Shown here piece after piece: positions 3,369 through 22,004 of a stretch of 64,000 nucleotides of DNA. The notes under the pieces are model-generated. The model was not told the origin of the DNA and did not search any database. It worked only from the letters and a program-made list of their open reading frames with translations. The DNA is from Nitrospira sp. BO4. GTDB taxonomy: Bacteria > Nitrospirota > Nitrospiria > Nitrospirales > Nitrospiraceae. Positions within the stretch are counted from its first letter, which is position 1; every line of letters begins with the position of its first letter. The stretch covers positions 620,001 through 684,000 of the forward strand of contig JAMPUU010000017.1 of assembly GCA_030144965.1 (NCBI GenBank). The letters are read 5' to 3'. Made by a program: the position numbers and the translations under genes.

Positions 3369-4094
3369 CTATGGGGTGAGAAACGGGGTGCTCGCCTTCT
3401 GCGACACACATTGCTCGATGGCGTTTCGGACGGATCCGCCCCACCCCCGATATTCGATGTACTCCAATTCGTTGAAGCGAAACTCCACGCCGATTATGTC
3501 GCAGCCGTTTCGCACTTCCGCGCTTTTGACGATGCCCGTCAGATTGGTAATATGCCCTAGTCCCGGAAGCTCGAACTCCAAGCGGACCGTAATTCCCGAA
3601 CGCAACCATGAAGGTCTTTGGGCCAACAATACGCTGCAGCCTCCCTCACTGAGGTCTTTGAGCAAACCCCCAAGATAGTCCCCGGTGGACAGCGTGGACG
3701 CGGACGCATTGCCTGCTCCGGTTCGCATCAATAGGATTGGCTCATTGGACGACACGCGTTCATGCTTACGCAGATGCATTTCCTCCACGAGCTTCGGATA
3801 GGCGATGAACATCAATGGGACCGGCGAAAGAGTCAGATCGCGTATCTCGCTGTGGTATCCGACCAGCTTCCCGTCATGAAGATAGCTGACAATGCATGGC
3901 GTACCTGCGGGGACTTGCTGATCATAACCAAGTTGTAGCGGTCGTTCGCAGACCAGCCAAGCATGATCCTTCCATCCAAGAAGCGTTGAGCCGTAGGTCA
4001 CCTTTTCCTGATCAATGGTGAGGGATATTTTCAGCGACAATCCGACCGACAAGAAGGAACCCGCTGGGGGAACGGATACGACAACGTCATTCAT
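3369..4094 (-). CDS. YcgR-like PilZ cyclic-di-GMP receptor (flagellar brake type)
   Basis: Predicted 241-residue cytoplasmic protein. The N-terminal half resembles the YcgR/PilZN domain; the C-terminal half is a PilZ domain with the RxxxR motif (R109-R113 in LRKHER) and the second motif D/NxSxxG (DLSEGG, from about 147), both needed for cyclic-di-GMP binding. ATG at 4094 is chosen with AGGA upstream; a GTG 30 bases earlier is possible. The gene is divergent from an HD-GYP gene and has a FliA-like promoter motif at 4144-4171, so it should be expressed with late flagellar genes. In the YcgR family the protein slows or biases the motor when cyclic-di-GMP is high. Confidence 0.85.
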   Translation of the reverse strand: MNDVVVSVPPAGSFLSVGLSLKISLTIDQEKVTYGSTLLGWKDHAWLVCERPLQLGYDQQVPAGTPCIVSYLHDGKLVGYHSEIRDLTLSPVPLMFIAYPKLVEEMHLRKHERVSSNEPILLMRTGAGNASASTLSTGDYLGGLLKDLSEGGCSVLLAQRPSWLRSGITVRLEFELPGLGHITNLTGIVKSAEVRNGCDIIGVEFRFNELEYIEYRGWGGSVRNAIEQCVSQKASTPFLTP

Positions 4095-4143
4095 GATGAT
4101 CGTTCCTGAGCTCTCAGTCGACACAAACCGACTCTGATGGACT

Positions 4144-4171
4144 CTATCGGAACGTTCCGGGCCGATCTTGA
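4144..4171 (-). promoter_or_regulatory. Candidate FliA (sigma-28) promoter of the PilZ gene
   Basis: Reading the minus strand, TCAAGATC, 12 bases, then TCCGATAG. Spacing and core (TCAAG and CCGATA) match the motifs found before the HD-GYP gene, csrA and flgM in this window. It is the weakest of the four. It lies 50 bases upstream of the ATG at 4094. Confidence 0.45.
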
Positions 4172-4235
4172 GGAACCAGGATCGATCACACCAGCTCAGA
4201 ACCGATCACAACACATCTCGATGCAAGGATAACGA

Positions 4236-4263
4236 TCAAGTTCGACGCATCCTTCGCCGATAA
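4236..4263 (+). promoter_or_regulatory. Candidate FliA (sigma-28) promoter of the HD-GYP gene
   Basis: TCAAGTTC, 12 bases, then GCCGATAA, a full match to the sigma-28 -10 box and a good match to the -35 box; the textbook enteric spacing is 11. The start codon at 4332 is 68 bases downstream. The same spacing recurs at 10897-10924 and 15797-15824. Confidence 0.65.
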
Positions 4264-4331
4264 CGCACACGAGGCCTCTCTTCTGTCGGCACGCCCGACC
4301 GGAGACACTTCTGACTCGGAGTCCAAGACAT

Positions 4332-5594
4332 ATGGCGATAAAGCGCATTCCGATCGAGCAGCTGATTCCAGGCATGTACATCATCGAGATGGATGTCCCT
4401 TGGTATCGAACCCCATTCCTCTCCCATAAAAGAATGATCAAGGATCTCCAGACCATCGAACTCATGAAGCAACATGGGATTAGGATGGTGACGATCGATA
4501 CCAGTAAAGGATGCGATCTTTCATCAGAGGCTCCGGCGAATACACCGCCCACGGCAGACCGGCAACAGGCCACCCCGGACGCATCCACTCCTCCGAACCC
4601 CAGTACCGAACGTCCATCGGAGTCGAAGCAGCCTGACGATCATACCGTGACGATCGTCTATGCACAGGCTCACGAAGCTGTCGAACGCATTTTTGAGGAG
4701 CTTGAACGCGGAGTTCCTCCGACTTTCGCGACTACCAAGGCGATCGTCTCGAATGTGCTGGCACAAATCCTCAGCGACCGCACCGCCATGGCCACACAGG
4801 TCGCCATTCAGAAAATCAAACAGTTCGATCGGTCATTGACGGCCCATGCGCTGGATACTTGCGTCCTGTCCCTCGTCGTGGCCATTGAAAGTGGGGTGGA
4901 GCAACCGCTGCTCGAACAAATCGGTATCGGCGCGTTACTCCACGACGCAGGGTATGTTCGCCTGCCACGAAATCTTGTTCGCAAACGGGAAGAATGCACC
5001 GGACAAGACAAGACACTTCTGGAACAGCATTGTAAATTGGGGGTGACGCTTCTCTCCGAGCATCCCGGCATGCCCGAGGACGTCTTGCGCATCGTCAGGG
5101 AGCATCATGAGCGCGCCGATGGAAGCGGATATCCGGCCGGCCTAGGCAACGATCAGATCTCACGCCACGCGCAGATCGTCGGCATCGTCAATTACTATGA
5201 TGGCATGGTCAGTCGACACGGATCTCGTCCCGCCATGATTCCACACGATGCCGTGCGGCAACTCTTCCTAGCCGGCGAAAAAGGACAGTTCGAAAAATCT
5301 CTCGTGGAACTTATGATTCGGAGCATCGGCGTCTACCCGGTCGGAAGTCTGGTCAAGCTGAATACCGGCGAACAGGCAGTCGTAATCGGAGCCAACCCTC
5401 AGCAACGGCTCAAGCCTCTTGTGAAAATCACGACCGACCCACAAGGGGGATCCTATACGACGCCCCTCGAGGTTGACTTGGCCGTGCCGTCCCCCGACCG
5501 CACGGTGCGAACGGTGCTGCGCGTCCTCGACCCGGCCAAAGAACGCATGAACATCGGTATACATCTGGACCAAACTCTGTCACGAGCCGCTTGA
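4332..5594 (+). CDS. HD-GYP cyclic-di-GMP phosphodiesterase with N-terminal DUF3391
   Basis: Predicted 420-residue protein. The N-terminus (IPIEQLIPGMYIIEMDVPW) is typical of DUF3391. A proline/threonine-rich linker follows at about 65-100, then an HD-GYP domain with the HD pair in LLHDAGYVRLP (about 203) and the signature HHERADGSGYPAGL (about 257). HD-GYP enzymes hydrolyse cyclic-di-GMP, usually to GMP, at a bi- or trinuclear metal site. The GYP residues are intact, so activity is expected. It is divergent from the PilZ gene and overlaps the hybrid kinase gene downstream as TGATG, so the two are probably cotranscribed from the FliA-like promoter at 4236-4263. Confidence 0.9.
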   Translation: MAIKRIPIEQLIPGMYIIEMDVPWYRTPFLSHKRMIKDLQTIELMKQHGIRMVTIDTSKGCDLSSEAPANTPPTADRQQATPDASTPPNPSTERPSESKQPDDHTVTIVYAQAHEAVERIFEELERGVPPTFATTKAIVSNVLAQILSDRTAMATQVAIQKIKQFDRSLTAHALDTCVLSLVVAIESGVEQPLLEQIGIGALLHDAGYVRLPRNLVRKREECTGQDKTLLEQHCKLGVTLLSEHPGMPEDVLRIVREHHERADGSGYPAGLGNDQISRHAQIVGIVNYYDGMVSRHGSRPAMIPHDAVRQLFLAGEKGQFEKSLVELMIRSIGVYPVGSLVKLNTGEQAVVIGANPQQRLKPLVKITTDPQGGSYTTPLEVDLAVPSPDRTVRTVLRVLDPAKERMNIGIHLDQTLSRAA

Positions 5595-8479
5595 TGAAAC
5601 GGTCTGGACGGAAGCGAGGACCATATCAACGTCGAATCGCAGTCGCTCCGCCGGGTGTGTTCCCCATGGTGGATCTATTCGAAGGACTGCCTCTCGCCTG
5701 CATCGTCCTCAACGCCGATCTCACGATTCAGACCGCCAACCGAGAGGGGCTTCGGTTGCTCGGGCCACGGTCAACTTCCCGCATCGCGAAATCATTTCCG
5801 GCTCTGTGGTCCAGGCTCACCCGATCCGATGCCGCGACGATTACGTCACAGCTGACCGGAGCGCTCAAAGGCCGTCCCGCCTCGGCGACACAACAACTCT
5901 TTTTGAGAGGGAGGATCGCCCCTGTTCCGGTGGAGTGGACTTGCGCCCCGGCCATGCACGACGGGATGAGTGTTCTGGTTGTCAGTCTGCGAGACCTGTC
6001 GTATGAAGTGGAACTGGAACACGACCGTGATCGCTTGGCCGCCATTGCCGAGGAAAGCCCCTCTCCGATCATCGAGCTGGATCGGCACGCGAGCTTGTCG
6101 TATGCCAACCCGGCGATGATCTCGTTGCTCTCCCGATTCGGATACAGTCCCGAAGGGTTTCCCAATGTGGTGCCCGGTCGGCTTCCAGACATCGTGCAGC
6201 GCTGTCTCACGACTCGGCACATCCTGCACGGCGAAGAAGTCGTCCTCCCGGGTGCCAGCTTTGTATGGACCTTTTGTCCGGTTCCAATCTTTGGAGTCGT
6301 TCGAGGCTACGCCACCGACATGACGAGCGTCCGTGAGACACAGCAGGCGCTCCAACTGTCGGCCGAGGAGCTTCGCCATAGCAACCAACGCCTCGACCGG
6401 GCTCTCGATGAGGCAAAAGAATCCGCACGGGTCAAAACGGCGTTCCTCGCAACGGTCAGCCACGAACTGCGAACCCCCATGAACGGCGTCATCGGAATGA
6501 CGAGTCTGTTGATGGAAACAAACTTGACGCCTGAACAGCAATCCTACGCGGAAACCATCCGGCTGTGCGGTGAGGCGCTGCTTGAGTTGATCAACGATGT
6601 GCTGGAATGCAGCAAGATCGAGGCGGGTAAGCTGGAGTTGGAGTGCCTCGATTTCAACTTGCGGACGACGGTCGAGCAAGTATTGGCGCAATTTGCCGAA
6701 CGGGCCGAGACGAAAGGGCTGGAACTGACCGGACTCGTGCACGCGGCGGTTCCGACCGGGCTCAAAGGCGACCCAGGACGGCTGCGCCAGATACTGACCA
6801 ACCTTGTGGCCAACGCCGTGAAGTTTACCGACAAAGGCGAAGTGACCCTGCAGGCTTACCTCGAGGAAGACCTCACCGATGCTGCCGTCATCCGTTTTGA
6901 AGTCACGGATAGCGGTATCGGCATCAGTCCGGATACACAAGCCAAGCTGTTCCGCCCATTTGTCCAAGCAGACAGCTCGACGACGAGGAAGTACGGCGGG
7001 ACCGGCCTCGGCCTTTCGATTTCCAAGCAACTCGTGGAATTGATGGGAGGACAAATCGGAGTCCGTAGCGTTGCAGGACAGGGAAGCACCTTCTGGTGCA
7101 CCGCGCGCCTCTCGAAACAAGCCGGCTCTCCACATGCTATTCTGCCGACCGGAGATCTTGCCGGAAAGCGAGTCTTGATCGTCGATGACAACGAATCGAA
7201 TCGTTTGATTCTGCACCATTTGGTCTCAGGTTGGGGCATGATTGACGACCTTGCGGAAGACGCCGAAGCAGGCTTGCAACGGATCACGCAGTCAACGCAG
7301 CGAGGAGAGCCCTACGATCTCGCCATCTTGGATGTGGTCATGCCGGGAAAAGACGGGTTGCAGCTCGCGCGAGAACTGCAATATCACCCTGAAGGTTCAG
7401 GAATACGCCTTGTGGTCATGACCTCAATACTGCAACGGGGCCACGCAGAACAGGCTCGCCAGGCCGGTGCGATGGGCTACCTGCCGAAGCCGGTCCGCCA
7501 TGACGAACTGCGCGACTGTCTAAAAACCGTGCTCGGCATACCCGAGAGCCAAGAACAGAGAGACACCCAGACCCTGGCAGTCGTCCCGCAACTCATTACG
7601 AGGCATACGGTCGCGGAAAATGTCCAGCATCGGCGTGTGCTGGTGGTGGAAGACAATCTCGTGAACCAGAAACTCGCGGTGCGCATGGTGGAGAAACTGG
7701 GATACCAGCCGGACGTCGTCGACAATGGCCAAGAGGCTTTGGTAGCGCTGGCAAAGGGAGACTATGCCGCCATCCTGATGGATTGTCAGATGCCGATTCT
7801 GGATGGATTTGAAACAACCCGAAGCATTCGAGAACGTGAACAGTCGGTCGAGCCTCCTCACACGCTCGATGAGGGCGTCGCTCGTTCAACCGCTACGCCG
7901 TATGCGATCCCGCATATTCCGATCATCGCGGTGACGGCAAATGCAATGCAAGGGGATCGCGAGCGCTGCTTGGCGGCCGGGATGGACGATTATCTCTCCA
8001 AACCGATCAAACTGAACGAACTGCGGGCTGCTCTTTCACGTTGGATCCCCACATCGTCCGATATGAGTGTCTGTCTATCGGAGGAGCCCCGTTCTCCCAC
8101 GAGCGACCCCGTACGAGGCATTTTTGATCCCGCGAAGATGTACCAGAATATCGGGCGCGACAACGAATTGTTCGCTCAACTCGTCTGCCTGTTTCTCGAT
8201 CGCCACCAAACGATGCTGGCCGACATCAGAACGGCGCTGACCAATGCCGACTCGACCGCCGTTGAGCGGGCGGCGCATTCCTTCAAGGGAACAGCGGGAA
8301 ATCTATGCGCCTCCGAGGTGGGACTCACCGCCGGCCGCCTCGAAGCAGTCGGGCGTCTGAATACACTTCATGATGCGCCACCAGTCTACGCGCAACTTGA
8401 GCTCGAAGTCGCTCGGCTCGTCCGTGTGCTTGAATCCTACCGGCAGGGATACCAGCCTCTCCCCCGAGCAGCCGCGTAA
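5594..8479 (+). CDS. Hybrid histidine kinase: PAS-HisKA-HATPase-REC-REC-HPt
   Basis: Predicted 961-residue soluble phosphorelay protein. Order: N-terminal PAS-like regions (about 25-240), coiled-coil linker, HisKA with VSHELRTPMNGVIGM (His about 291), HATPase with ATP-lid motifs DSGIGISPD and GGTGLGLSISKQL, a receiver with VDDNESNR and phosphoacceptor in LAILDVVMP (about 578), a second receiver with VEDNLVNQ and ILMDCQMP (about 729), and a C-terminal HPt with AAHSFKGTAGNL (His about 894). No membrane segment is evident. The ATG at 5594 overlaps the HD-GYP stop; a TTG one codon earlier is possible. Its output partner is not obvious, though the HPt could feed another receiver such as the one fused to FliH. 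Confidence 0.92.
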   Translation: MKRSGRKRGPYQRRIAVAPPGVFPMVDLFEGLPLACIVLNADLTIQTANREGLRLLGPRSTSRIAKSFPALWSRLTRSDAATITSQLTGALKGRPASATQQLFLRGRIAPVPVEWTCAPAMHDGMSVLVVSLRDLSYEVELEHDRDRLAAIAEESPSPIIELDRHASLSYANPAMISLLSRFGYSPEGFPNVVPGRLPDIVQRCLTTRHILHGEEVVLPGASFVWTFCPVPIFGVVRGYATDMTSVRETQQALQLSAEELRHSNQRLDRALDEAKESARVKTAFLATVSHELRTPMNGVIGMTSLLMETNLTPEQQSYAETIRLCGEALLELINDVLECSKIEAGKLELECLDFNLRTTVEQVLAQFAERAETKGLELTGLVHAAVPTGLKGDPGRLRQILTNLVANAVKFTDKGEVTLQAYLEEDLTDAAVIRFEVTDSGIGISPDTQAKLFRPFVQADSSTTRKYGGTGLGLSISKQLVELMGGQIGVRSVAGQGSTFWCTARLSKQAGSPHAILPTGDLAGKRVLIVDDNESNRLILHHLVSGWGMIDDLAEDAEAGLQRITQSTQRGEPYDLAILDVVMPGKDGLQLARELQYHPEGSGIRLVVMTSILQRGHAEQARQAGAMGYLPKPVRHDELRDCLKTVLGIPESQEQRDTQTLAVVPQLITRHTVAENVQHRRVLVVEDNLVNQKLAVRMVEKLGYQPDVVDNGQEALVALAKGDYAAILMDCQMPILDGFETTRSIREREQSVEPPHTLDEGVARSTATPYAIPHIPIIAVTANAMQGDRERCLAAGMDDYLSKPIKLNELRAALSRWIPTSSDMSVCLSEEPRSPTSDPVRGIFDPAKMYQNIGRDNELFAQLVCLFLDRHQTMLADIRTALTNADSTAVERAAHSFKGTAGNLCASEVGLTAGRLEAVGRLNTLHDAPPVYAQLELEVARLVRVLESYRQGYQPLPRAAA

Positions 8480-10896: not shown

Positions 10897-10924
10897 TTAT
10901 CGGCCTACCGGGACGGAAACTTGA
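10897..10924 (-). promoter_or_regulatory. Candidate FliA (sigma-28) promoter of csrA-fliW
   Basis: On the minus strand, TCAAGTTT, 12 bases, then GCCGATAA: the best match of the four in the window. It sits 38 bases before the csrA ATG and inside the flgL-csrA gap. Confidence 0.7.
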
Positions 10925-15796: not shown

Positions 15797-15824
15797 TTAT
15801 CGGTTTCTACCCAGAAAAACTTGA
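15797..15824 (-). promoter_or_regulatory. Candidate FliA (sigma-28) promoter of flgM-flgN-flgK-flgL
   Basis: On the minus strand, TCAAGTTT, 12 bases, then ACCGATAA. It overlaps the last codons of flgJ and lies about 78 bases before the flgM ATG. It implies that the anti-sigma factor is autoregulated through FliA. Confidence 0.6.
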
Positions 15825-21257: not shown

Positions 21258-22004
21258 TCAACTGACCGCTTGTAGATGCGCTTTGAGTCGGATGATCGCC
21301 TTCGTATGAATTTGACACACTCTCGACTCGGTCACCTTCATGAGCTCCCCGATCTCTTTCATCGTGAGCTCTTCATAGTAGTACAGCGTGAGGACAAGAC
21401 GTTCTTTTTCCGGTAAGGCTTGGATGGCCCCGGTGATCAATTCACGTTCGCGCTCGTTGACCAACGACGACAAGGGATCAGGCGTATGCGTGTCGGCCAA
21501 CATCTTCACCACTTTATGCCCGTCCGGTTCTTGAAGACTCAAATCGTCCACGCTGATCATCACCGCGCCTCTGGCCCGCGTAATGAACTCGTCAAGTTCC
21601 TCTAAGGACATCTTCAGTTCCGTCGCCACTTCGTCATCATGCGGCGGTCGGCCGAATCGGCTCATGAGCGTCACATGCGCCTTTTGGAGCAGACCGATTC
21701 GTTCGTGGACCGATCGTGGAACCCAATCCATCGAACGGATTTCATCGAGCATGGCCCCGCGAATACGGAACTCCGCGTAGGTCTTGAACTTCGCTTCCCG
21801 GGTGGGATCATACTTGTCCATGGCATCCATGAGTCCAATGGTGCCGACCGAGATCAAGTCCTCCGCATCCAAGTAAGCTGGAAGGCGGAAGGCCAGCCGA
21901 TGCGCCATCGCGCGAATCACGTGGGCAAACTCTTTGATGAGTTCCTCACGTCTCGTTCCCTGCGAAAAGGATTTCCGCTCGTGTGACAATGCTGTTTTGC
22001 TCAT
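21258..22004 (-). CDS. fliA: Flagellar sigma factor FliA (sigma-28)
   Basis: Predicted 248 residues. Region 2 is seen in YLDAEDLISVGTIGLMDAMD and AEFRIRGAMLDEIRSMDWVP, region 3 in the following helices, and region 4 in LYYYEELTMKEIGELMKVTE with SRVCQIHTKAI as the DNA-recognition helix. The protein directs RNA polymerase to late flagellar promoters such as the four motifs listed here. It is the last gene of the fliL-to-fliA run, 24 bases after flhG. Confidence 0.96.
   Translation of the reverse strand: MSKTALSHERKSFSQGTRREELIKEFAHVIRAMAHRLAFRLPAYLDAEDLISVGTIGLMDAMDKYDPTREAKFKTYAEFRIRGAMLDEIRSMDWVPRSVHERIGLLQKAHVTLMSRFGRPPHDDEVATELKMSLEELDEFITRARGAVMISVDDLSLQEPDGHKVVKMLADTHTPDPLSSLVNERERELITGAIQALPEKERLVLTLYYYEELTMKEIGELMKVTESRVCQIHTKAIIRLKAHLQAVS

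Follow-up and report, generated by a model that had tools for sequence, protein, structure and literature searches.

A predicted FliA-controlled c-di-GMP motor brake divergent from a conserved, probably non-hydrolytic HD-GYP protein in Nitrospira

Introduction

The closest described system is that of Escherichia coli, where late FliA promoters precede both the c-di-GMP brake YcgR and YhjH (PdeH), an EAL phosphodiesterase, which are encoded at separate loci (PMC4183435). The FliA sites given there are TCAAG-N15-CCGATA for flgKL, TTAAG-N15-CCGATA for ycgR and TAAAG-N15-CCGATA for yhjH, the N15 spacing being our own count from the printed sequences. In Pseudomonas a YcgR-type PilZ protein, FlgZ, is likewise encoded among flagellar genes (PMC3913639).

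For the HD-GYP domain, the reference is the active tri-iron phosphodiesterase PmGH, in which K225A abolishes activity, while D305A and E185A reduce it strongly (PMC4159591). The same source describes Bd1817 of Bdellovibrio as inactive with its metal site kept, the GYP tyrosine being absent and the lid closed. Vibrio cholerae VCA0681 is active though it misses one residue that PmGH needs (PMC4212101), and DvhD of Desulfovibrio, a non-hydrolytic HD-GYP c-di-GMP receptor, is a precedent for a domain of this kind that binds and does not cleave c-di-GMP (PMC13090378).

Here we analyse a divergent gene pair in a 64-kb stretch of Nitrospira DNA (hereafter the window). The locus, as we read it, is a variant of the E. 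coli FliA-YcgR/YhjH module, and differs from it by its divergent layout, by an HD-GYP in place of the EAL protein, by the loss of the catalytic lysine from this HD-GYP and by a putative hybrid kinase partner, whose gene overlaps that of the HD-GYP. A limited literature search on Nitrospira HD-GYP, PilZ, c-di-GMP and FliA/sigma28 returned no paper on the locus.

Results

Organization of the locus

The gene for the PilZ protein (positions 3369–4094, minus strand, 241 amino acids, ATG at 4094) and that for a DUF3391 plus HD-GYP protein, which we call HD-GYP1 (4332–5594, plus strand, 420 amino acids), are divergent and separated by a gap of 237 bases (4095–4331). HD-GYP1 is followed on the same strand by a hybrid histidine kinase (5594–8479, 961 amino acids), which has PAS, HisKA, HATPase, receiver and Hpt domains by Pfam, and in which the H-box, the ATP-binding motif, two receiver aspartate motifs and the Hpt histidine motif are all present. 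Since the kinase ATG (5594) overlaps the HD-GYP1 stop codon (5592–5594), the two genes are very probably co-transcribed; that their products are also partners is suggested by this overlap and by synteny. The initial annotation had placed the kinase in the transcript of a c-di-GMP eraser, of which the shared transcript agrees with the gene overlap and the eraser label is not supported (see below). The gene for FliA (sigma-28) itself lies in the window at 21258–22004 on the minus strand (TIGR02479, 1e-75, 254.3 bits against a cut-off of 189.6). A search of the window against Rfam gave a single tRNA, distant from the locus, and no other RNA match.

Two sigma-28 type promoters in the gap

The gap carries two sites of the form TCAAG-N16-CCGATA facing outward, one for each gene: at 4145–4171 on the minus strand towards pilZ, and at 4236–4262 on the plus strand towards HD-GYP1 and the kinase, where the sequence reads TCAAGTTC-N12-GCCGATA. 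Their presence in both directions is as the initial annotation had proposed for this divergent pair. With the spacer allowed to vary from N10 to N22, the same word is found five times in the window, where 100 dinucleotide shuffles lead one to expect 0.20. Four of the five matches have N16, namely the two gap sites and two sites on the minus strand that we used as internal motif references, one upstream of csrA-fliW (10898–10924) and one upstream of flgM-flgN-flgK-flgL (15798–15824). The csrA-fliW site is present in 15 of the 22 orthologous loci where csrA was found, and the CsrA/FliW pair appears to belong to the late flagellar class.

In the whole genome to which the window belongs (G000, with the window starting at position 620001 of contig C17), sites with N15 precede two genes, one for a flagellin and one of rod or hook type, and the −35/−10 word and spacing of the gap sites are common to the flagellin, flgM and csrA sites. 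By itself the word is unspecific at this scale: a scan with N14–18, which includes both gap sites, gave 25 matches against nine for a reversed control, and TNAAGW-N14..15-CCGATA gave 17 against four; a scan at N13–15 misses both gap sites because of their N16 spacing. Several of the genome-wide matches have no plausible gene start downstream. The promoter assignment is thus drawn from conservation and flagellar neighbours, and not from the word alone.

Three further genes of G000 begin at or close to FliA-type sites. A second hybrid kinase (L150; PAS/GAF/HisKA/receivers, 1061 amino acids) starts 69 nucleotides past C6:56324-56349, and an HDOD-GAF protein (L151, 526 amino acids) begins 30 nucleotides past C24:264850-264876. 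A small stand-alone PilZ protein (L036, frame of 129 amino acids) lies right at C15:126924-126949; the site and the first start codon of this frame overlap, which leaves its true start uncertain. From L036, PilZ proteins besides the brake may be in the FliA regulon.

Conservation of the locus and its tie to FliA

The distribution was followed in 39 genomes, including G000, and in a second sample of 25 orthologous loci, 22 of which are titled Nitrospira sp.; at least seven of the 25 loci also belong to the genome set, and all counts are sequence matches rather than independent events. An HD-GYP1 orthologue (53–100% identity) is found in 18 of the 39 genomes, all of one genus. PilZ is directly divergent from it in 13 of these, with the PilZ ATG in an identical position in 13/13. 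In L014, L015 and L018 another HD-GYP gene lies between the two; L017 stops at a contig edge, and L010 is without PilZ.

Among the 25 loci, the HD-GYP1-side site is present in all and the PilZ-side site in 24, PilZ is present in 24 and the hybrid kinase follows HD-GYP1 in all. The sole exception is L092, which has lost PilZ and has CCGAGA as the PilZ-side −10, with the HD-GYP1-side site intact; this locus amounts to a natural experiment on the promoter assignment. In L104 HD-GYP1 is shortened. With L092 and L104 excluded, both sites occur at N15–16 in 22 of 23 real gaps (L100 misses, with N17 on one side), and 100 dinucleotide shuffles of each of the 23 gaps gave none. In an alignment of gaps from genomes whose HD-GYP1 proteins are 53–100% identical, no blocks stand out as conserved more clearly than the two sites. 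The distance from −35 to −35 is near constant (68–71 in 22 gaps, 64 in the window), which indicates that insertions and deletions in the gap are rare; low divergence may therefore contribute to the promoter conservation.

FliA scored above the cut-off in 23 of the 39 genomes. HD-GYP1 is present in 18 of these 23 and in 0/16 FliA-negative genomes (Fisher 1e-6, a test that ignores kinship), and PilZ in 17/23 and 0/16, respectively. The FliA-positive genomes without HD-GYP1 are G014, which has a fragment only, G020, with a completeness of 67%, and three genomes from other genera. We interpret the two gap sites as back-to-back sigma-28 promoters, and infer from their sequence that they depend on FliA.

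The PilZ protein

The pilZ product matches PilZNR (PF12945, 2.4e-11, 44 bits against a cut-off of 23) and PilZ (PF07238, 2.8e-6, 28.1 bits against 22.5), and it is the sole PilZNR protein in G000, against 33 PilZ matches genome-wide. In the window protein the c-di-GMP-binding motifs read RKHER (RxxxR) and DLSEGG, and RxxxR and [DN]xSxxG are intact in 41 of 41 orthologue matches. A PDB sequence search with this protein as query gave no match at E<0.01. The protein is probably a c-di-GMP-dependent motor brake of the YcgR/FlgZ type, and at the level of sequence the earlier proposal of such a brake stands. The flgZ gene of Pseudomonas is not known to lie beside an HD-GYP gene.

HD-GYP1 lacks the catalytic lysine

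HD-GYP1 matches DUF3391 (3.4e-25) and HD_5 (8.5e-23, 81.4 bits) in Pfam, has the HD dyad at 204–205 and the motif DGSGYP, and shares its domain with PmGH. In the alignment with PmGH (4mcw), six of the eight metal ligands have equivalents (H189, H221, D222, H250, H276 and H277 of PmGH), and D183 corresponds to a conserved D166; these residues fit a working metal centre, and count against a non-hydrolytic HD-GYP1. Three positions differ in the window protein: K225 is replaced by Y208, so that HDxGK reads HDAGY, D305 by N287 and E185 by S168. The tyrosine at the lysine position (HDxGY) is found in 18/18 orthologues of the genome set and in 25/25 loci. Asparagine at D305 is restricted to the window and L006/L088, the other orthologues read at this position having aspartate (L104 excluded). 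Over 20 sequences the mean column identity is 79%, no variation is seen at the tyrosine, the HD dyad or the histidine ligands, and the protein looks constrained rather than decaying.

Five of the eight HD_5 proteins of G000 are without the HDxGK lysine, and have L, M or Y instead; lysine-less HD-GYPs seem to be common in this genome, and in this lineage a protein without the lysine may therefore still be active. The activity of VCA0681, which misses a residue needed by PmGH, likewise speaks against reading HD-GYP1 as non-hydrolytic. An AlphaFold model of HD-GYP1 is of low confidence (mean pLDDT 67.6) and too weak for active-site geometry. The top Foldseek matches of this low-confidence model are HD-GYP proteins, with Bd1817 the best fold match. 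Like HD-GYP1, Bd1817 has a non-lysine residue at HDxGK (HDYGH, against HDAGY) and keeps the metal ligands; the two differ in that the lid of Bd1817 is closed and its GYP tyrosine is missing, whereas HD-GYP1 keeps G-Y/F-P. DvhD, which carries dCache and PAS domains and is a receptor of the membrane, has by alignment lost the HD dyad; in HD-GYP1 the dyad is intact and the N-terminus is a DUF3391 domain. HD-GYP is the correct domain name for HD-GYP1, and activity is a separate question; on its residues, we consider HD-GYP1 probably non-hydrolytic.

HD-GYP2, a canonical paralogue

The HD-GYP gene found between HD-GYP1 and PilZ in L014, L015 and L018 encodes a paralogue, HD-GYP2, which lies there between the PilZ-side promoter and pilZ, with pilZ starting within a few bases. 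Its motifs are canonical (HDIGK, HHERxDGTGYP and DIYDA), and in a quick tree of 34 rows HD-GYP1 and HD-GYP2 separate on opposite sides of one branch. At E<1e-160 it was found in 13 of the 39 genomes, all within the 18 that have HD-GYP1, and was absent in the same search from G000, G001, G005, G012 and G018. Two copies per genome are present in G004 (C382), G006 (C54) and G011, side by side in G004 and G006.

The pattern T[ACT][AC]AG-N15/16-CCGATA precedes 13 of 13 start-complete HD-GYP2 copies with at least 131 nucleotides upstream, a count that leaves out L113, L078, two partial copies (upstream region or start missing), and some second copies. HD-GYP2 is, judging from its residues, likely to be the FliA-linked c-di-GMP eraser proper. 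A plausible history is that of an old HD-GYP2-pilZ operon facing HD-GYP1 and the kinase, from which HD-GYP2 left the locus and was then lost in several lineages. Among the FliA-type sites of G000 read with two patterns, a search that leaves weaker promoter variants outside, no other HD-GYP gene was found downstream. Erasers that are not under FliA, such as the canonical L142, may serve in this genome.

Discussion

The best explanation of the locus as a whole, to which we give a probability of about 0.6, is a FliA-controlled brake together with a conserved, probably non-hydrolytic HD-GYP1 that would work with the hybrid kinase. The two back-to-back sigma-28 promoters would place both outputs under late flagellar control, with FliA turning on both arms late in flagellar assembly. 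The PilZ protein, when loaded with c-di-GMP, would slow the motor at high c-di-GMP. HD-GYP1, made with the kinase, retains most of the metal site and is without the catalytic lysine; it would most likely not hydrolyse c-di-GMP, and would most probably serve the kinase phosphorelay as a scaffold or as a partner that responds to a nucleotide. The role of true eraser would fall to HD-GYP2, beside pilZ in deep branches and elsewhere with its own FliA-type site; in G000, from which it is absent, no HD-GYP2 would remain to lower c-di-GMP under FliA. The brake-and-eraser circuit of the initial annotation thus keeps its FliA-type promoters on both sides and its brake motifs, and probably loses its eraser, as HD-GYP1 is without the lysine and HD-GYP2 is absent from G000.

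According to the initial annotation, HD-GYP1 would be an active c-di-GMP phosphodiesterase that relieves the PilZ brake expressed alongside it. We now consider such a circuit, which would parallel that of YhjH and YcgR in E. coli, unlikely. It would account for the retained HD dyad, the GYP motif and six of the eight metal ligands of PmGH, as well as for the predicted co-regulation with the brake, and it has a precedent in the binding of FliA upstream of yhjH and ycgR in E. coli (PMC4183435). Against it are the tyrosine in place of the HDxGK lysine in all orthologues read, the replacement of the D305 ligand by asparagine in the window and L006/L088, and the existence of a canonical, FliA-linked HD-GYP2 in 13 of the 18 genomes. 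Members of the HD superfamily act on many different substrates, and the invariance of the histidine ligands, the dyad and the tyrosine in 20 orthologues, as in a working site, would also suit a phosphohydrolase of another substrate (pGpG, 3′3′-cGAMP or other) with the tyrosine replacing the lysine. Any such site would be weakened by the D to N change that the window shares with L006/L088, and we regard this activity as quite improbable.

The promoters themselves could be recognised by a factor other than FliA or be conserved for another reason, given that their assignment is made from sequence and that the N16 spacing in the window exceeds by one base that of the ycgR and yhjH sites in E. coli (by our count). 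The same word stands at N15 or N16 before flagellin, flgM and csrA, and HD-GYP1 and PilZ are both absent from genomes without FliA, which makes this very unlikely.

A more specific version of the preferred reading, a non-hydrolytic HD-GYP1 in partnership with the kinase, can be put forward only tentatively. HD-GYP1 could be a c-di-GMP sensor that feeds the kinase, so that one late switch would build both a motor brake and a phosphorelay that reads c-di-GMP, and several Nitrospira lineages, G000 included, would have given up the true FliA-linked eraser and retained just brake and sensor.

For Nitrospira, nitrifiers known mainly from metagenomes, the analysis defines a promoter word for FliA and outlines a small predicted late regulon. 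At this locus, the HD-GYP label should not be taken to mean "phosphodiesterase". Were HD-GYP1 a sensor linked to the kinase, it would offer a testable example of an enzyme that has become a receptor within the flagellar hierarchy, for which the canonical FliA-linked paralogue HD-GYP2 in sister genomes would be a natural control.
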